From Granulimonas faecalis (lineage in GTDB: Bacteria > Actinomycetota > Coriobacteriia > Coriobacteriales > Atopobiaceae): a DNA stretch of 64,000 bases. Each line of letters opens with the position of its first letter. Positions within the stretch are counted from its first letter, which is position 1. Where the stretch lies: positions 62,001 to 126,000 of the forward strand of contig NZ_BQKC01000001.1 of NCBI RefSeq assembly GCF_022834715.1, in the 5' to 3' direction. Below are positions 9,612-57,099 of this stretch, piece after piece. The notes under the pieces are model-generated. The model was not told the origin of the DNA. It did not search any database and was given only the letters and a program-made list of their open reading frames with translations. The position numbers and the translations under genes are program-made.

Positions 9612-9633
9612 GGTCCAAGACAAGGAGACGCCC

Positions 9634-10584
9634 ATGACCGCAGACGTGAACCGCCCTGTCCCGCGCGGCGTTCTGGTGCAGGAGCCCTGTCTCGTGCGCA
9701 CCGTTTGGGGCGCCGCCCGCGTGGCCGCCGCCCGTGGAATCGAGGGCCCTGTGGGCACCAGCTGGGAGGTGAGCCGTCATCCCCATGGCGAGAGCCGCGT
9801 CGTCGTGGGGCCGTGGGCCGGCGTGGGGCTTGGGGCCGTGGTGGACGCCGACCCCGCAGGATGCCTGGGCGGCCACGCCATGGTGCGCGGAGCCTTTCTC
9901 GATGCCGCGGAGGCGCTTTCGGTGCAGGTGCACCCGCAGGAGGACTATGCGCGCACCCACGAGGGCGACCACGGCAAGACGGAGACTTGGTACGTGGTGG
10001 AGGCCGAGCCCGGCGCCACCATTGTGGCCGGCACGAGCGCCTCTTCTGTGGAGGAATTGAAGGCCGCCGTGGAAGACGGCAGCTTGGACGCGCTGCTCGT
10101 GCGCGTGCCCGTGTCCGCGGGCGATGTGGTGCACGTGCCTGCCGGAACGCTGCATGCCCTGGGCGCCGGCGTGCTCGCGGCCGAGCTGGGGTCCGACTCC
10201 GACGTCACGTACCGCTTCTTCGACTATGGGCGCACCGACGCCTCGGGCGCCCCTCGCGAGCTTCATGTGGAGCAGGGCCTCGCCGTGGTCGATCCCACGA
10301 GTCGCCCCCAGGTCGTAGGGTGCGGCACGGGGCTGGGGTCTGGCATGCGGGCGTCGGTGTCGGCCGACGGCTACGAGGCGCTTGTGCTCGACGTCTCCCG
10401 CGGCCTGACTTGGGACCCGCAAGGACGCCCCGCGGCGGTGATGGTGGTGGAGGGCTACGGCACCGCCTCGTGGAAAGGGGGCACGGCCGAGCTGGCAACG
10501 TTTGAAAGCGCCTTCGTCCCGGCGGCGACGGGTCCCGTAAGCCTTACAGGTCCCATGCGCCTCTTCTGCGCGGTGGGAGCATAA
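9634..10584 (+). CDS. manA: Mannose-6-phosphate isomerase, class I
   Basis: Zinc-dependent interconversion of mannose 6-phosphate and fructose 6-phosphate; 316 residues. Metal-binding motifs of the cupin fold are visible: LSVQVHPQEDYAR with the adjacent TETWYVVE, and VHVPAGTLHALGAGVL. ATG at 9634 is preferred over a start at 9610 because AAGGAG lies 7 bases upstream of it and the extra residues do not match the family. Being downstream of the GntR/UTRA gene suggests control by a sugar-phosphate signal. Confidence 0.93.
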   Translation: MTADVNRPVPRGVLVQEPCLVRTVWGAARVAAARGIEGPVGTSWEVSRHPHGESRVVVGPWAGVGLGAVVDADPAGCLGGHAMVRGAFLDAAEALSVQVHPQEDYARTHEGDHGKTETWYVVEAEPGATIVAGTSASSVEELKAAVEDGSLDALLVRVPVSAGDVVHVPAGTLHALGAGVLAAELGSDSDVTYRFFDYGRTDASGAPRELHVEQGLAVVDPTSRPQVVGCGTGLGSGMRASVSADGYEALVLDVSRGLTWDPQGRPAAVMVVEGYGTASWKGGTAELATFESAFVPAATGPVSLTGPMRLFCAVGA

Positions 10585-10711
10585 GCCCTCCCCTCTCCGG
10601 ACCTCTTCTCTGCGCCCGCAGGACGAGGGGGACCCGAGTCGCGACCGTTGACGCAAAGCGGGGCGCGAGATTCCGTCGTAAGCAGGTAGGTCTGCCTGAC
10701 CCACAACGCAT

Positions 10712-10812
10712 GTCCGCGGGCCCGCATCGAAGGGCGAATCTGAGAGCGGCCCCGTGCGTAGGCAGATGCACGGGGCCGCTCGAACTGGGCCCGACGATGC
10801 GGGCCCGCGGAC
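10712..10812 (-). ncRNA. Nested-hairpin element E1 (candidate structured RNA)
   Basis: Lies between the convergent manA and C69 dipeptidase genes. The outer 18-bp perfect arms are 10712-10729 with 10795-10812. A 4-bp middle stem is GGGC (10732-10735) with GCCC (10789-10792). The inner 14-bp perfect stem is 10744-10757 with 10768-10781 around a 10-base loop. No T-run follows. Read on the minus strand it aligns with element E2 at 28845-28948, including the internal loop TTC/TCAGAT, part of the outer stem (CCCGCATC) and the 5' flank. Strand is assigned from that alignment. Function unknown: RNA gene, terminator or mobile repeat are all possible. Confidence 0.55.
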
Positions 10813-10839
10813 CCCAGGTCGCGAAGGGCCTGCAGGCAC

Positions 10840-12438
10840 TTATCGGTCGTTCATGTTGAAGCAGTCGCGCATGTTCACGCTCGTGGTGAAGAGCACCTTG
10901 CCGAGCACCTCGTCGGTGGCCTTCTGGATGAGGTCGCAGGTGGCCTGGTTGGCCTTCTCGAGCTCGGCCTGCACCGAGGCCTCGTCTGCGTCGCTGCCTA
11001 GGGCGTCCACGGCCTTGTCGGCGGCCGCCACCTGGGCGTGGCCCTGGCCCAGGGTGGCCTCCTGGTAGGCGGCCACGGTGTTCCAGTTGCTGCCGAACTG
11101 CGCGTCGGCCAGGGCGGCCAGCACGCGCATCTCCCAGTAGAAGGTCTCGGTGGTCACCCGCGGGGTCACGGCGAGGTAGTCCGGCACCGCGTTCACGTTG
11201 GTGAACATCGGGATGAAGGTGGAGTAGGTCATGTCGCCCATGGCCACCCACTGCACGGCGCGGTGGCTGGCGGCCACCGAGGGGCGAATCTGGATGAGAG
11301 AGGTCTCGTTGTTGCGGTTGATGCCGATGGGCCGGTAGAGCTTGCCCTGCTCCTTGGTGCCGAGGGTGCCGTAGGGGTCGTAGACGGTGTCCTGGTAGTG
11401 GCTCGAGAGCACGGTCTTGACGTCCTCCACGGTCACCTTGCGCTCGGGAATGCGGCACCAGGGCAGGTCGTCGCTGTCGGGGCGGTAGGCGGCGTCGGGG
11501 CCGTCGTAGGAGTCGGACGGGTTGAGGTAGCGCTGCATGTACCAGGCGCGCGGCGTGTTGTACACGTGGTCGGCGTAGTCGTGGCTGCCAAAGATCGGAC
11601 GCGGGTCGATGACGCGGGGAAGGCCGCGCAGGCGCTCGTCTGAGGAGGCCCCTGCCATGCCCACGGCGGCAGCGGCGGCCCCGAGCACGGTCTTAGCCAC
11701 AGACTCCTTGGGCATCCCCAGGTAGAGGTTGTTGTCCACAATAAAGTCGGCGAGGTCGGCGCTGCAGCGGTAGTCCTTGCCTTCGCCGAGGGCGTCCACG
11801 AGGTCTAGGCGGTCGATACCCAGCTGGTTGGGCTGGGTCACGTAGGCGTCGTCGGGCACGCGGCGGGCGATCCAGTGGTGGCCGCCCACGGTCTCGAAGT
11901 ACCAGACCTCGTCGGGGTCGCTCACGGCGATGCCGTTGGACTCGTAGGTGCCGTATCTCTCGTGCAGGGCCCCCAGGCGCTCCACACCCTGCCTGGCGCT
12001 CGTGATGTAGGGCAGGCAGATGGTGACGAGGTCCTCTTCGCCGATGCCGCCTGCCTGCTCGGGCGCATAGCCGGGCTGCCCTTCGGTGCCCGTGGCGGGG
12101 CGATAGGCCACCAGGGGGTCGGCCCCTAGCACCCGGGAGTTGGTGGTGATGGTCTCGGTGGCGCTCATGCCCACGTTGACGCTGTTGACGCCGGCCTCGG
12201 CCCACACACCCTCGACGGGGTCGACGTTGGGCATCGCCGTGTAGCGCAAGGGGTTCTCCGGCAGGTTGATGGTGAGGTGCGAGATGACGCAGCGGTAGGT
12301 GCGCGGCTGGTCGGCCGGCTCCACCACCACCATCTTCTTGGCGCAGAACGAGCCGTCGCCGTCGTCCTCGTTGCGGGCGATCATGGTGGAGCCATCGTAG
12401 GTGGCTCCCTTTCCTACGAGCAGGGTGGTGCAGGCCAT
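10840..12438 (-). CDS. pepD: C69-family dipeptidase, cytosolic
   Basis: N-terminal-nucleophile dipeptidase of family C69 (PepD/PepDA), 532 residues. The start ATG at 12438 has AGGAGAGGAGG upstream and gives MACTTLLVGKGATYDGSTM. Removal of Met and Ala, or self-processing, would expose the catalytic Cys3. The conserved ARNEDDG follows, and further family motifs include VDPVEGVWAEAGVNSVNVGMS and YFETVGGHHWIA. An upstream in-frame extension exists but does not match the family. There is no signal peptide, so it acts inside the cell on short peptides. It is divergent from an exported member of the same family at 12801. Confidence 0.92.
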   Translation of the reverse strand: MACTTLLVGKGATYDGSTMIARNEDDGDGSFCAKKMVVVEPADQPRTYRCVISHLTINLPENPLRYTAMPNVDPVEGVWAEAGVNSVNVGMSATETITTNSRVLGADPLVAYRPATGTEGQPGYAPEQAGGIGEEDLVTICLPYITSARQGVERLGALHERYGTYESNGIAVSDPDEVWYFETVGGHHWIARRVPDDAYVTQPNQLGIDRLDLVDALGEGKDYRCSADLADFIVDNNLYLGMPKESVAKTVLGAAAAAVGMAGASSDERLRGLPRVIDPRPIFGSHDYADHVYNTPRAWYMQRYLNPSDSYDGPDAAYRPDSDDLPWCRIPERKVTVEDVKTVLSSHYQDTVYDPYGTLGTKEQGKLYRPIGINRNNETSLIQIRPSVAASHRAVQWVAMGDMTYSTFIPMFTNVNAVPDYLAVTPRVTTETFYWEMRVLAALADAQFGSNWNTVAAYQEATLGQGHAQVAAADKAVDALGSDADEASVQAELEKANQATCDLIQKATDEVLGKVLFTTSVNMRDCFNMNDR

Positions 12439-15117: not shown

Positions 15118-15159
15118 CGCCTGAAAGCGATTGAGGGTACCCTCAATCGCTTTCAGGCG
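15118..15159. repeat. Perfect 42-bp palindrome (REP-like family P, copy 1)
   Basis: Perfect palindrome centred between 15138 and 15139. Each arm reads CGCCTGAAAGCGATTGAGGG before the centre. Related copies occur at 36553-36598, 37157-37208, 44749-44879 and 58463-58502, always between genes. Here it lies 80 bases after the exported dipeptidase and can act as its transcription stop. Confidence 0.85.
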
Positions 15160-28095: not shown

Positions 28096-28827
28096 GTGGG
28101 TATCGCTCAGCGCATAGAGGCGAGCATCGACGCCGCCTCGTGCATGCACCTGCTCGACCGCGAGCCGCGGGAGCAGGCGGCCGACTGGTGCTACCGGGTG
28201 CTGCTCCACAACATCCAGATGCTGTACATGCCGCCGGGCTCCATCCTGCGGGAACCGGACCTCGCCGCGCGCATGGGGGTCTCCCGGACGCCGGTGCACG
28301 AGGCGGTCAAGCGGCTCGTCGAGGCGCACCTGGTCTTCGTGGCGCCCAAGCGGGCCACGTTCGTCTCCCTCATCGACATGGACGTCCACGCCCAGGGGCG
28401 CTTCGCCCGCACGGCGGTGGAACCCCTGCTCATCGCCAAGCTGCAGGGCCGGCTCACGCCTGGGCAGCATGCCGACTACGAGGCCAACATCGCCCGGCAG
28501 GCGGAGATGGCCCGCCTGGGCGCCAACCCGCGCGACGTGGTGACCGTGGACGACGAGTTCCACCACCTGCTCTACACCCACACCGGTAACGAGCTGGTGT
28601 GGGAGGCCAACCGCATGGTGTCGGCGCAGTTCGACCGTGTGCGCTACATGGGCCTGGTCCTGGGCTACGAGCACCTCATGGTGGGGGAGCACGACTTCCT
28701 CCTCGACATCCTCGAGACCGGCGACGTGCCCGTGGTGGATATCTACGACATGGTGGACGCCCATCTCAAGGGTTATCGCCGCTTCATCGACCGCCTGACG
28801 GCGGACCACCCCGACTACTTCGCCTAG
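28096..28827 (+). CDS. GntR-family regulator, FCD-type ligand domain
   Basis: A 243-residue transcription factor. The winged helix-turn-helix has PPGSILREPDLAARMGVSRTPVHEAVKRL (about 43-75), followed by an all-helical FCD domain. In that domain the metal/ligand residues are expected around DDEFHHLLYTHTGN. FCD members often sense sugar acids such as gluconate or galactonate. That fits the keto-deoxygluconate genes that start 0.2 kb downstream, so it is the best candidate regulator for them, though it is convergent with eda. GTG 28096 lies 7 bases after the deacetylase stop. Confidence 0.85.
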   Translation: MGIAQRIEASIDAASCMHLLDREPREQAADWCYRVLLHNIQMLYMPPGSILREPDLAARMGVSRTPVHEAVKRLVEAHLVFVAPKRATFVSLIDMDVHAQGRFARTAVEPLLIAKLQGRLTPGQHADYEANIARQAEMARLGANPRDVVTVDDEFHHLLYTHTGNELVWEANRMVSAQFDRVRYMGLVLGYEHLMVGEHDFLLDILETGDVPVVDIYDMVDAHLKGYRRFIDRLTADHPDYFA

Positions 28828-28844: not shown

Positions 28845-28948
28845 GGCCGCGGCGCCCGCATCGGCGGAGGCAATTCGAACGGGGGTGTGTATCTGGCGAT
28901 ACACACCCCCGTTCTCAGATGCCTCCTTATGATGCGGGCGCCGCGGCC
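28845..28948 (+). ncRNA. Nested-hairpin element E2 (candidate structured RNA)
   Basis: Between the convergent gntR/FCD and eda genes. The outer 18-bp perfect stem is 28845-28862 with 28931-28948. The middle 7-bp stem GGAGGCA/TGCCTCC is 28866-28872 with 28920-28926. The inner 17-bp perfect stem is 28877-28893 with 28898-28914 around loop TGGC. The internal loop ATTC/TCAGA and the outer-stem segment CCCGCATC match element E1 at 10712-10812 when E1 is read on the minus strand. A base-pair swap in the inner stem preserves pairing (GAGCGG/CCGCTC in E1, GAACGG/CCGTTC here). No T-run follows. Confidence 0.58.
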
Positions 28949-29058: not shown

Positions 29059-29706
29059 CTACCGCACCAGGGCCGCCGCCTCGCGCACCAGGCGCTCCAC
29101 GGTGGCGAAGTCGCCGGCGGCCACCACGTCGGCCGGGGCCACCCAGGTGCCGCCCACGCAGAAGACGTTGGGGGCGTCCAGGTACTCGTGGGCGTTGCCC
29201 GGCTTCACGCCGCCGGTGCACATGAACTTGACGCCGGGGAAGGGGCCGTTCATGGCGTGCAGCATGGCGGTGCCGCCCACCACGGAGGCGGGGAAGAGCT
29301 TCACATGGTCCACGCCCAGGTCGATGGCGCGCACGACCTCGCTCGGGGTGGCGAGGCCCGGAACCACGGGGACCTCGTGGCGCACGCACCAGCGCACGGA
29401 GTCCTCGGCGATGCCCGGGCTCACGATGAACTTGGCGCCGGTCTCCACGGCGGCCTCGGTGGTGGGCACGTCGATGACGGTGCCGGCGCCCACGAGCAGG
29501 TCGGGCACCTCCTCTGCCATGCGGCGGATGCACTCGGCGGCGCAGGGCGTGCGGAACGTGACCTCGGCCGCGGGCAGTCCGCCGGCCACGAGGGCGCGGC
29601 CCAGGGGCACGGCGAACTCCGGGTTGTCGATGGTGATGACGGGGATGATGCCGATCTGCTCGAACCGGTCGAGCACGGCGGTGACTGCGGGGTTGTCCTT
29701 GTACAT
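29059..29706 (-). CDS. eda: 2-dehydro-3-deoxy-phosphogluconate (KDPG) aldolase
   Basis: Splits KDPG into pyruvate and glyceraldehyde 3-phosphate; 215 residues, normal for class I KDPG/KHG aldolases. Conserved marks are ITIDNPEFAVPLGRALVAGG, the catalytic Glu in AEVTFRTPCA, VGAGTV, the Schiff-base lysine in DHVKLFPAS, and TGGVKPGNAHEYL. ATG at 29706 is 2 bases downstream of the kdgK stop (on the minus strand), so the two genes form an operon kdgK-eda that turns keto-deoxygluconate into triose phosphate and pyruvate. Confidence 0.96.
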   Translation of the reverse strand: MYKDNPAVTAVLDRFEQIGIIPVITIDNPEFAVPLGRALVAGGLPAAEVTFRTPCAAECIRRMAEEVPDLLVGAGTVIDVPTTEAAVETGAKFIVSPGIAEDSVRWCVRHEVPVVPGLATPSEVVRAIDLGVDHVKLFPASVVGGTAMLHAMNGPFPGVKFMCTGGVKPGNAHEYLDAPNVFCVGGTWVAPADVVAAGDFATVERLVREAAALVR

Positions 29707-43200: not shown

Positions 43201-43229
43201 GTGACAGAGGTGCCTGGCCCATCTGTCAC
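43201..43229 (+). repeat. Repeat family Q, copy 1
   Basis: An 8-bp stem GTGACAGA/TCTGTCAC with GGTGCCTGGCCC inside. It matches 57000-57028 at 33 of 35 positions over the core, with weaker similarity for about 20 bases beyond. Both follow a plus-strand stop codon by about 15-20 bases. Confidence 0.75.
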
Positions 43230-43286
43230 TTCGCCTATTCAAGTACTGATAACCACTGACACCAACTGTGGAAAGGGGTAGGTCCC

Positions 43287-44945: not shown

Positions 44946-44985
44946 GGCCAATGTGGGACAAAAGTGTCCGACCATTGGGACGGGG
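44946..44985 (-). repeat. Repeat family R, copy near the Nramp stop
   Basis: On the minus strand GTCCCAATGGTCGGACACTT is followed by TTGTCCCACATTGG, about 1.7 units of a 22-base repeat. The same unit occurs 2.5 times after the fsa stop at 53301-53355. Both start within a few bases of a stop codon. Confidence 0.7.
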
Positions 44986-53300: not shown

Positions 53301-53355
53301 TCTGTCCCACCGGTCGGACACTTCTGTCCCAATGGTCGGGCACTTGTGTCCCACA
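53301..53355 (+). repeat. Repeat family R, 2.5 tandem 22-base units
   Basis: Units start at 53301, 53323 and 53345; each reads TGTCCCA, two variable bases, GGTCGG then CACT. They begin 4 bases after the fsa stop. An inverted relative is at 44946-44985. Confidence 0.75.
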
Positions 53356-56999: not shown

Positions 57000-57028
57000 G
57001 TGACAGCGGTGCCTGGCCCATCTGTCAC
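57000..57028 (+). repeat. Repeat family Q, copy 2
   Basis: GTGACAG/CTGTCAC stem with GGTGCCTGGCCC inside, nearly identical to 43201-43229 and in the same position relative to the preceding stop codon. Confidence 0.75.
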
Positions 57029-57099
57029 TTAGCCTCTTGAGAATCTGATTGTCCTGCCCGCGGTGTTTGCCGCGCGCGGCCCGCGACCCCGGAGGAACC

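Follow-up and report, generated by a model that had tools for sequence, protein, structure and literature searches.

Structure of E1 and its neighbouring genes

The window analysed in this study (64,000 nucleotides of the Granulimonas faecalis genome, to whose positions the coordinates refer) contains a manA-like gene and a dipeptidase gene (Peptidase_C69) in convergent orientation, and the palindromic element E1 lies between them (Table 1). The manA-like protein scored 88.4 bits against the NCBIfam model manA, under its cut-off of 116.2, and had no Pfam match at 1e-5. The stop codon of the dipeptidase gene ends at 10840, which leaves a gap of 27 nt to E1 instead of the 28 bases counted originally; on its other side, the element is separated from the end of the manA-like gene by 127 nt.

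The original prediction ascribed to E1 an outer stem of 18 bp and an inner stem of 14 bp, both perfect, and our stem census found both within the stated span, with a middle stem between them and a 10-nt loop at the tip. Read on the dipeptidase strand, the order is outer arm, middle stem, AGTTC, inner hairpin, TCAGAT, middle stem, and outer arm. When positions 10700–10825 were folded as RNA, the plus strand reached −92.2 kcal/mol (z −9.95) and the minus strand −94.0 kcal/mol (z −8.83), and none of 200 shuffles was as good on either strand. The minus strand also folded well as single-stranded DNA with DNA parameters (−52.6, z −8.07). The rod as a whole is far beyond what shuffling yields, the longest stem in the shuffled window being 14 bp (three second-order Markov shuffles, loops up to 80).

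A second element, E2, which the first reading had overlooked, shows the same architecture and starts 17 nt past the stop codon of a GntR/FCD regulator gene. Therefore, E1 is not isolated in the window. Single stems were also recorded in the census at 15118 (19 bp), 37163, and 53366 (18 bp each); with these and E2 present, the claim that E1 is far stronger than the ordinary terminators of the window did not hold. We compared E1 (minus strand) with E2 over 41 pairs: 23 were identical, 13 had changed on both sides and still paired, and 5 were broken or otherwise changed. Only 4 of the 21 unpaired positions differed, indicating that the stems diverge while the unpaired bases are largely common. 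Since both elements lie between convergent genes, a plain two-way terminator could serve at both sites.

Three other repeats occur in and around the window. The first is a REP-like intergenic palindrome around GCCTGAAAGCGATTGAGGGC/GCCCTCAATCGCTTTCAGGC with well-kept sequence, whose 17-nt core was counted 7 + 4 times on the two strands in the sampled 464 kb. The second family has GGACACTTTTGTCC-type arms (12 + 7 counted in the sampled own genome). The third is GTGACAGAGGTGCCTGGCCCATCTGTCAC, of which one copy (L170) stands directly behind a partial member of the E1/E2 family and another (L256) near a RAYT-like gene.

Table 1 Features of the E1 and E2 loci and other repeats discussed in the text (L numbers are locus labels).
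Feature	Position	Strand	Remarks
E1, whole rod	10712–10812	−	Stem census, folds; R2 score 91.2 on −, 47.2 on +
E1 outer arms	10712–10729/10795–10812		18 bp, perfect
E1 middle stem	10732–10735/10789–10792		4 bp, between outer and inner stems
E1 inner arms	10744–10757/10768–10781		14 bp, perfect, loop 10
E1 internal loop, 5′ side	10782–10786	−	AGTTC on − strand, partly conserved
E1 internal loop, 3′ side	10738–10743	−	TCAGAT on − strand, partly conserved
Dipeptidase gene (Peptidase_C69)	10840–12438	−	Precedes E1; start codon assigned by eye
manA-like gene	9631–10584	+	Convergent with dipeptidase gene; NCBIfam manA; start uncertain
E2	28845–28948	+	Perfect-stem census; E1-like architecture; R2 score 117.2 on +, 66.2 on −
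E2 outer arms	28845–28862/28931–28948		18 bp
E2 middle stem	28866–28871/28921–28926		6–7 bp
E2 inner arms	28877–28893/28898–28914		17 bp
GntR/FCD regulator gene	28144–28827	+	In front of E2; start uncertain
KDPG/KHG aldolase gene	29059–29706	−	Convergent with GntR/FCD gene
GCCTGAAAGCGATTGAGGGC/GCCCTCAATCGCTTTCAGGC palindrome	15109, 36547, 37153, 44739, 58453; L120 4582, L122 3526, L123 19698
GGACACTTTTGTCC-type repeat	44952–44981, 53326–53355; L162, L167–L169
GTGACAGAGGTGCCTGGCCCATCTGTCAC repeat	43201–43250, 57000–57049; L170 near 2650; L256 1092
yjdF riboswitch/gene flanked by elements	L155 10784–11737; L156 9330–10254

Distribution of the E1/E2 family

A 61-nt core model built from four copies (R1) was searched in 160 relatives. 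Strong full-length matches were found only in the own genome (G000) and in G022 and G073, which belong to one genus, sister to that of the own genome within the same family; weak matches (E up to 1) occurred in 34 of the 160. We then used a full covariance model (R2; 15 copies, 109 positions, 41 pairs) on the three carrier genomes, 396 genomes of the class, and 140 of the family. Matches above 32 bits were confined to the three carriers. The remaining matches at E ≤ 0.001, from five genomes in the class search and one in the family search, scored at most 31.4 bits, and several covered the inner hairpin only, which alone scores 25–30 bits.

Altogether, 22 copies were counted: 10 in the own genome, 7 in G022 (four of them inside 9 kb), and 5 in G073. 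Of these, 21 reached at least 33 bits with R2 on the better strand, and the G073 copy behind eno (28.7 bits) was retained as the orthologue of the G022 eno copy. A G000 match at 1444230 (29.7 bits, ca. 79 nt behind a same-strand gene), a G022 match at C11:85224 (28.2 bits, an ordinary T-tailed hairpin), and all lower-scoring matches were omitted.

Simpler searches were less suitable. A DNA search with E1 alone gave matches in 3 of 60 genomes at E 0.01 (own genome, G022, and G056), and G056 was dropped because its match spanned 24 bases with no palindrome visible around it. The exact motif TCGAGCGGCC...GGCCGCTC occurred in 16 of 395 genomes of the order, and the matches outside G000 and G022 carried different stretches between the arms; since the stem varies, this motif is too narrow. 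A pattern of the 5′ half with three mismatches was uninformative in the own genome (150/142 forward/reverse hits versus 330/401 for the backwards control). Scanning the genome collection with the dipeptidase returned 42 loci of 37–51% identity, mainly from bifidobacteria and lactobacilli, and no close strain of the own genome.

No Rfam family reached its gathering score at the elements, and the sub-threshold matches were mostly microRNA hairpins. Rfam families and uptake signals were considered as the identity of the E1/E2 family and set aside. We found no description of the family in the open-licence PMC literature searched, though it may still have been reported. Hairpins with ATCYG.CGAT-like tips and no outer arms were also seen in the own genome (L118 14251, L121 11354, and L124 10572); they may be family members in decay, or the inner hairpin may derive from them.

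Position and strand of the elements relative to genes

Because the internal loops are asymmetric, the element has a strand, and R2 scores one strand higher than the other. On the consensus strand, 19 of the 22 elements start between −5 and +46 nt from the end of a same-strand stop codon, usually at 10–30 nt; 18 of these were placed by the retrained gene caller and rbsK by a separate gene call. Counting orthologues once, the rule held at 15 of 17 independent places, several of which lie between tandem genes. Such a fixed strand relative to the gene is a property of structured cis-acting RNAs. The genes in front of the elements are unrelated and have no obvious common function; the names EttA, enolase, ribokinase, NuoG-like, ThrRS, mraZ, and yjdF were read from sequence, with Pfam assignments for part of the proteins.

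Two of the three exceptions are orthologous elements located behind a yjdF-type gene on the other strand. The third (own genome, 1304339) is in a gap of ca. 900 nt between integrase-type and mraZ-like genes, in which no Rfam match was found. Part of this gap (L166 1850–2440; C1 ca. 1303750–1304340) has AT-rich stretches and no called gene, ends in the plus-strand family member, and could hold an undescribed RNA gene. Additionally, both sister-genus species have a yjdF (azaaromatic) riboswitch and gene between two oppositely oriented family elements; the yjdF-type protein had no NCBIfam match.

Consensus structure and covariation

The family element is ca. 105 nt long and consists of an outer stem of ca. 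10–18 bp, a middle stem of ca. 6 bp, and an inner hairpin of ca. 17 bp, separated by two short, asymmetric, partly conserved internal loops. In the consensus, C precedes GGARRC and TTA follows its partner at one loop, and TTCGA is opposite TCTCAGA at the other; some loop positions are invariant and others variable. Parts of the stems are also conserved in sequence, namely GCAT/ATGC in the innermost part of the outer stem and GCATC/GATGC beneath the tip.

Using 15 aligned copies, we found that 84.5% of the cells pair (66.4 in shuffles) and that 30 of the 41 pairs show two-sided changes, 14 of 18 in the outer, 5 of 6 in the middle, and 11 of 17 in the inner helix. The covariation was 0.470 compared with 0.180 in shuffles; none of 500 shuffles reached this value, and sliding the partner by 1–3 columns lowered it to 0.161 or less. 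RNAalifold unaided recovered the identical three helices. The alignment includes four orthologous pairs and leaves out L161, L162, L164, L165, L166, L208, and L216, and the count is biased toward pairing because these seven copies pair less well or were found later. Unpaired columns were slightly more conserved on average than paired ones (entropy 0.82 versus 0.98). The 15 best copies, relatives included, therefore combine covarying helices with conserved unpaired bases, as expected of a structured cis-acting RNA.

On the other hand, G-U and A-C mismatches numbered 24 and 28 over all pairs and 19 and 10 in the 33 best-paired positions. These counts do not discriminate between the possible acting strands or molecules, and over all pairs RNA of the consensus strand is not favoured. 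Among 27 rows, both halves were kept in 10, only the 5′ half in 7, only the 3′ half in 2, and neither in 8; this asymmetry is weak because E1, L157, and L159, which fall under "5′ only", still pair.

T-runs behind the stems

Canonical intrinsic terminators have a GC-rich hairpin behind a gene and a T-run directly after it, and the elements show the former feature and mostly lack the latter. With a strict test (at least 5 T in 8 nt beginning 0–2 nt past the stem), no T-run was found directly behind the inner stem in any of the 22 elements, and in three of them a run occurred close to the outer-arm end. For comparison, 15 of 62 perfect hairpins in the sampled own genome had a T-run on either strand, although this set still includes family members and the script picked another stem in 2 of the 22 elements. 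Since the strict test misses T's paired inside the stem, it was repeated leniently over 37 nt 3′ of the tip (at least 5 T in 8 nt), which detected a run in three of the 22 elements (6 T in a row in two of these) versus 23 of 62 hairpins. These results indicate that most copies are not canonical intrinsic terminators, whereas one or two may be.

Hairpins without a U-rich tract have been described at transcript ends in a GC-rich Streptomyces (PMC8269248), and hairpin clusters near stop codons are reported to be active in termination in another study (PMC8355165). The E1/E2 family resembles the I-shaped terminators of GC-rich bacteria (PMC8269248) in having a strong hairpin soon past the stop codon, mostly with no U-tract. 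As outlined in that report, however, I-shaped terminators are defined by shape alone, unlike the E1/E2 family, which has three helices, loops that are partly conserved, and a strand, and whose copies are linked by descent or by a common design. The inverted DNA uptake sequences of Neisseria and Pasteurellaceae, as described in PMC1852404, likewise place recurring-motif hairpins where terminators are expected. They are given there as one fixed stem word of 9–11 nt that is very frequent in the genome, whereas the stems of the E1/E2 family vary and the family is small. A further likeness, by description only, is to the bacterial stem-loop sequence families of PMC2267715, repeated structured sequences of which some are suspected terminators.

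Turnover of the elements between genomes

The best matches of the own genome to the G022 enolase and ABC protein were 92% and 86% identical. Behind the enolase gene, the element is complete in G022 and reduced to the 5′ half and inner hairpin in G073. A simple T-tailed hairpin stands there in the own genome, suggesting that the element occupies the usual place of a terminator. Behind rbsK, G022 has a full element and G073 only the 5′ half; behind the ABC gene, the element is present in G022 alone among the three carriers. Neither an empty site nor a target duplication was seen at these three places.

Such presence and absence would fit a REPIN- or MITE-like palindrome, mobile but non-autonomous, that inserts behind genes and whose function, if any, is secondary, as would the confinement of the element to two genera, the cluster of G022 copies within 9 kb, and the abundance of other intergenic palindromes in the own genome. 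REPINs (PMC3116915) are, like the elements studied here, intergenic palindromes that fold into long hairpins with several copies per genome; in the account given there, however, their stem sequence is kept and they are associated with RAYT. The E1/E2 copies have no REP stem sequence in common, and their stems diverge widely rather than being copied. No RAYT gene was established in the carriers: Y1-type transposase genes (Y1_Tnp) number 3 in G000, 0 in G022, and 0 in G073, so that two of the three carriers have none, and two of the three G000 genes match the RAYT model below its cut-off. With only 5–10 copies per genome and neither of the insertion traces sought above, we regard a mobile origin as unlikely.

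The elements might instead be ordinary terminator hairpins whose arms lengthened and stayed perfect through template switching during replication, the rod itself being unselected. Template switching is reported in PMC8794818 to make and mend RNA stems, and for this reason covariation alone is weaker evidence than it appears. This reading agrees with the occurrence of inner hairpins alone and with copies that have a 5′ half but no pairing 3′ half (L161, L164, L170, L216, and G073 rbsK); we speculate that the RNA end may now lie at the inner hairpin in such copies. It leaves unexplained, however, why unpaired bases stay fixed among differing stems. In the ettA pair of G022 and G073, six pairs had two-sided changes, no pair a one-sided change, and three pairs other changes, while none of the 22 unpaired positions changed. 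The ettA pair is a clear case of stem change with fixed loops, and the other three orthologous pairs are weaker. The nuoG-like pair had four two-sided, one one-sided, and six broken or other changes, with 3 of 21 unpaired positions changed; the 1159706/1787595 pair had one, six, and ten, respectively, with 2 of 24; and the 1167807/1794353 pair had no two-sided and one one-sided change, with 1 of 22. Overall, we consider template switching as the sole cause rather improbable.

Proposed role of the E1/E2 family

Stems that change in step, loop parts that stay fixed, and the place behind genes suggest that the elements probably shape or protect mRNA ends. We therefore favour, with moderate confidence, the view that E1 belongs to a lineage-specific family acting in mRNA at the 3′ end. 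The original prediction had offered a very stable RNA or cruciform extrusion as possibilities, and the former gains from the covariation of the helices, the partly conserved loops, and the gene-matched strand (19 of 22). A DNA hairpin, either extruded as a cruciform or formed in a single strand, seems most improbable as the acting form (e.g., as a protein or recombination site). In its favour, stable folds are obtained from both strands, with DNA parameters as well, E1 and E2 are each flanked by converging genes, and G-U is not in excess over all pairs. However, the strand is that of the preceding gene at 15 of 17 independent places, several between tandem genes, and extrusion does not account for the asymmetric loops or the position past the stop codon.

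As an mRNA 3′-end element, E1 would act once the RNA shortly past the stop codon folds into one three-helix rod. This rod may form or mark the transcript's 3′ end, serving as a hairpin terminator free of a U-tract, as a clamp against 3′ exonucleases, or as both, and the internal loops might position a protein or RNase. Since the outer and middle helices covary, the transcripts would be expected to reach the far arm; if RNA is the acting form, transcription must proceed past the inner hairpin in at least some cases. A more specific version, in which the family is a new structured RNA class and a lineage-specific protein or RNase recognizes its conserved internal loops to set the 3′ end or stability of a small group of mRNAs, is put forward only tentatively.

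How transcripts end without a U-tract in GC-rich bacteria is not fully settled. Small and well bounded, clearly covarying, partly fixed in its loops, and preceded by known genes, the E1/E2 family offers a ready test set for this question. Additionally, the two-sided rewriting of the ettA stem between two sister species, with fixed loops, bears on whether selection or template switching is the source of covariation.
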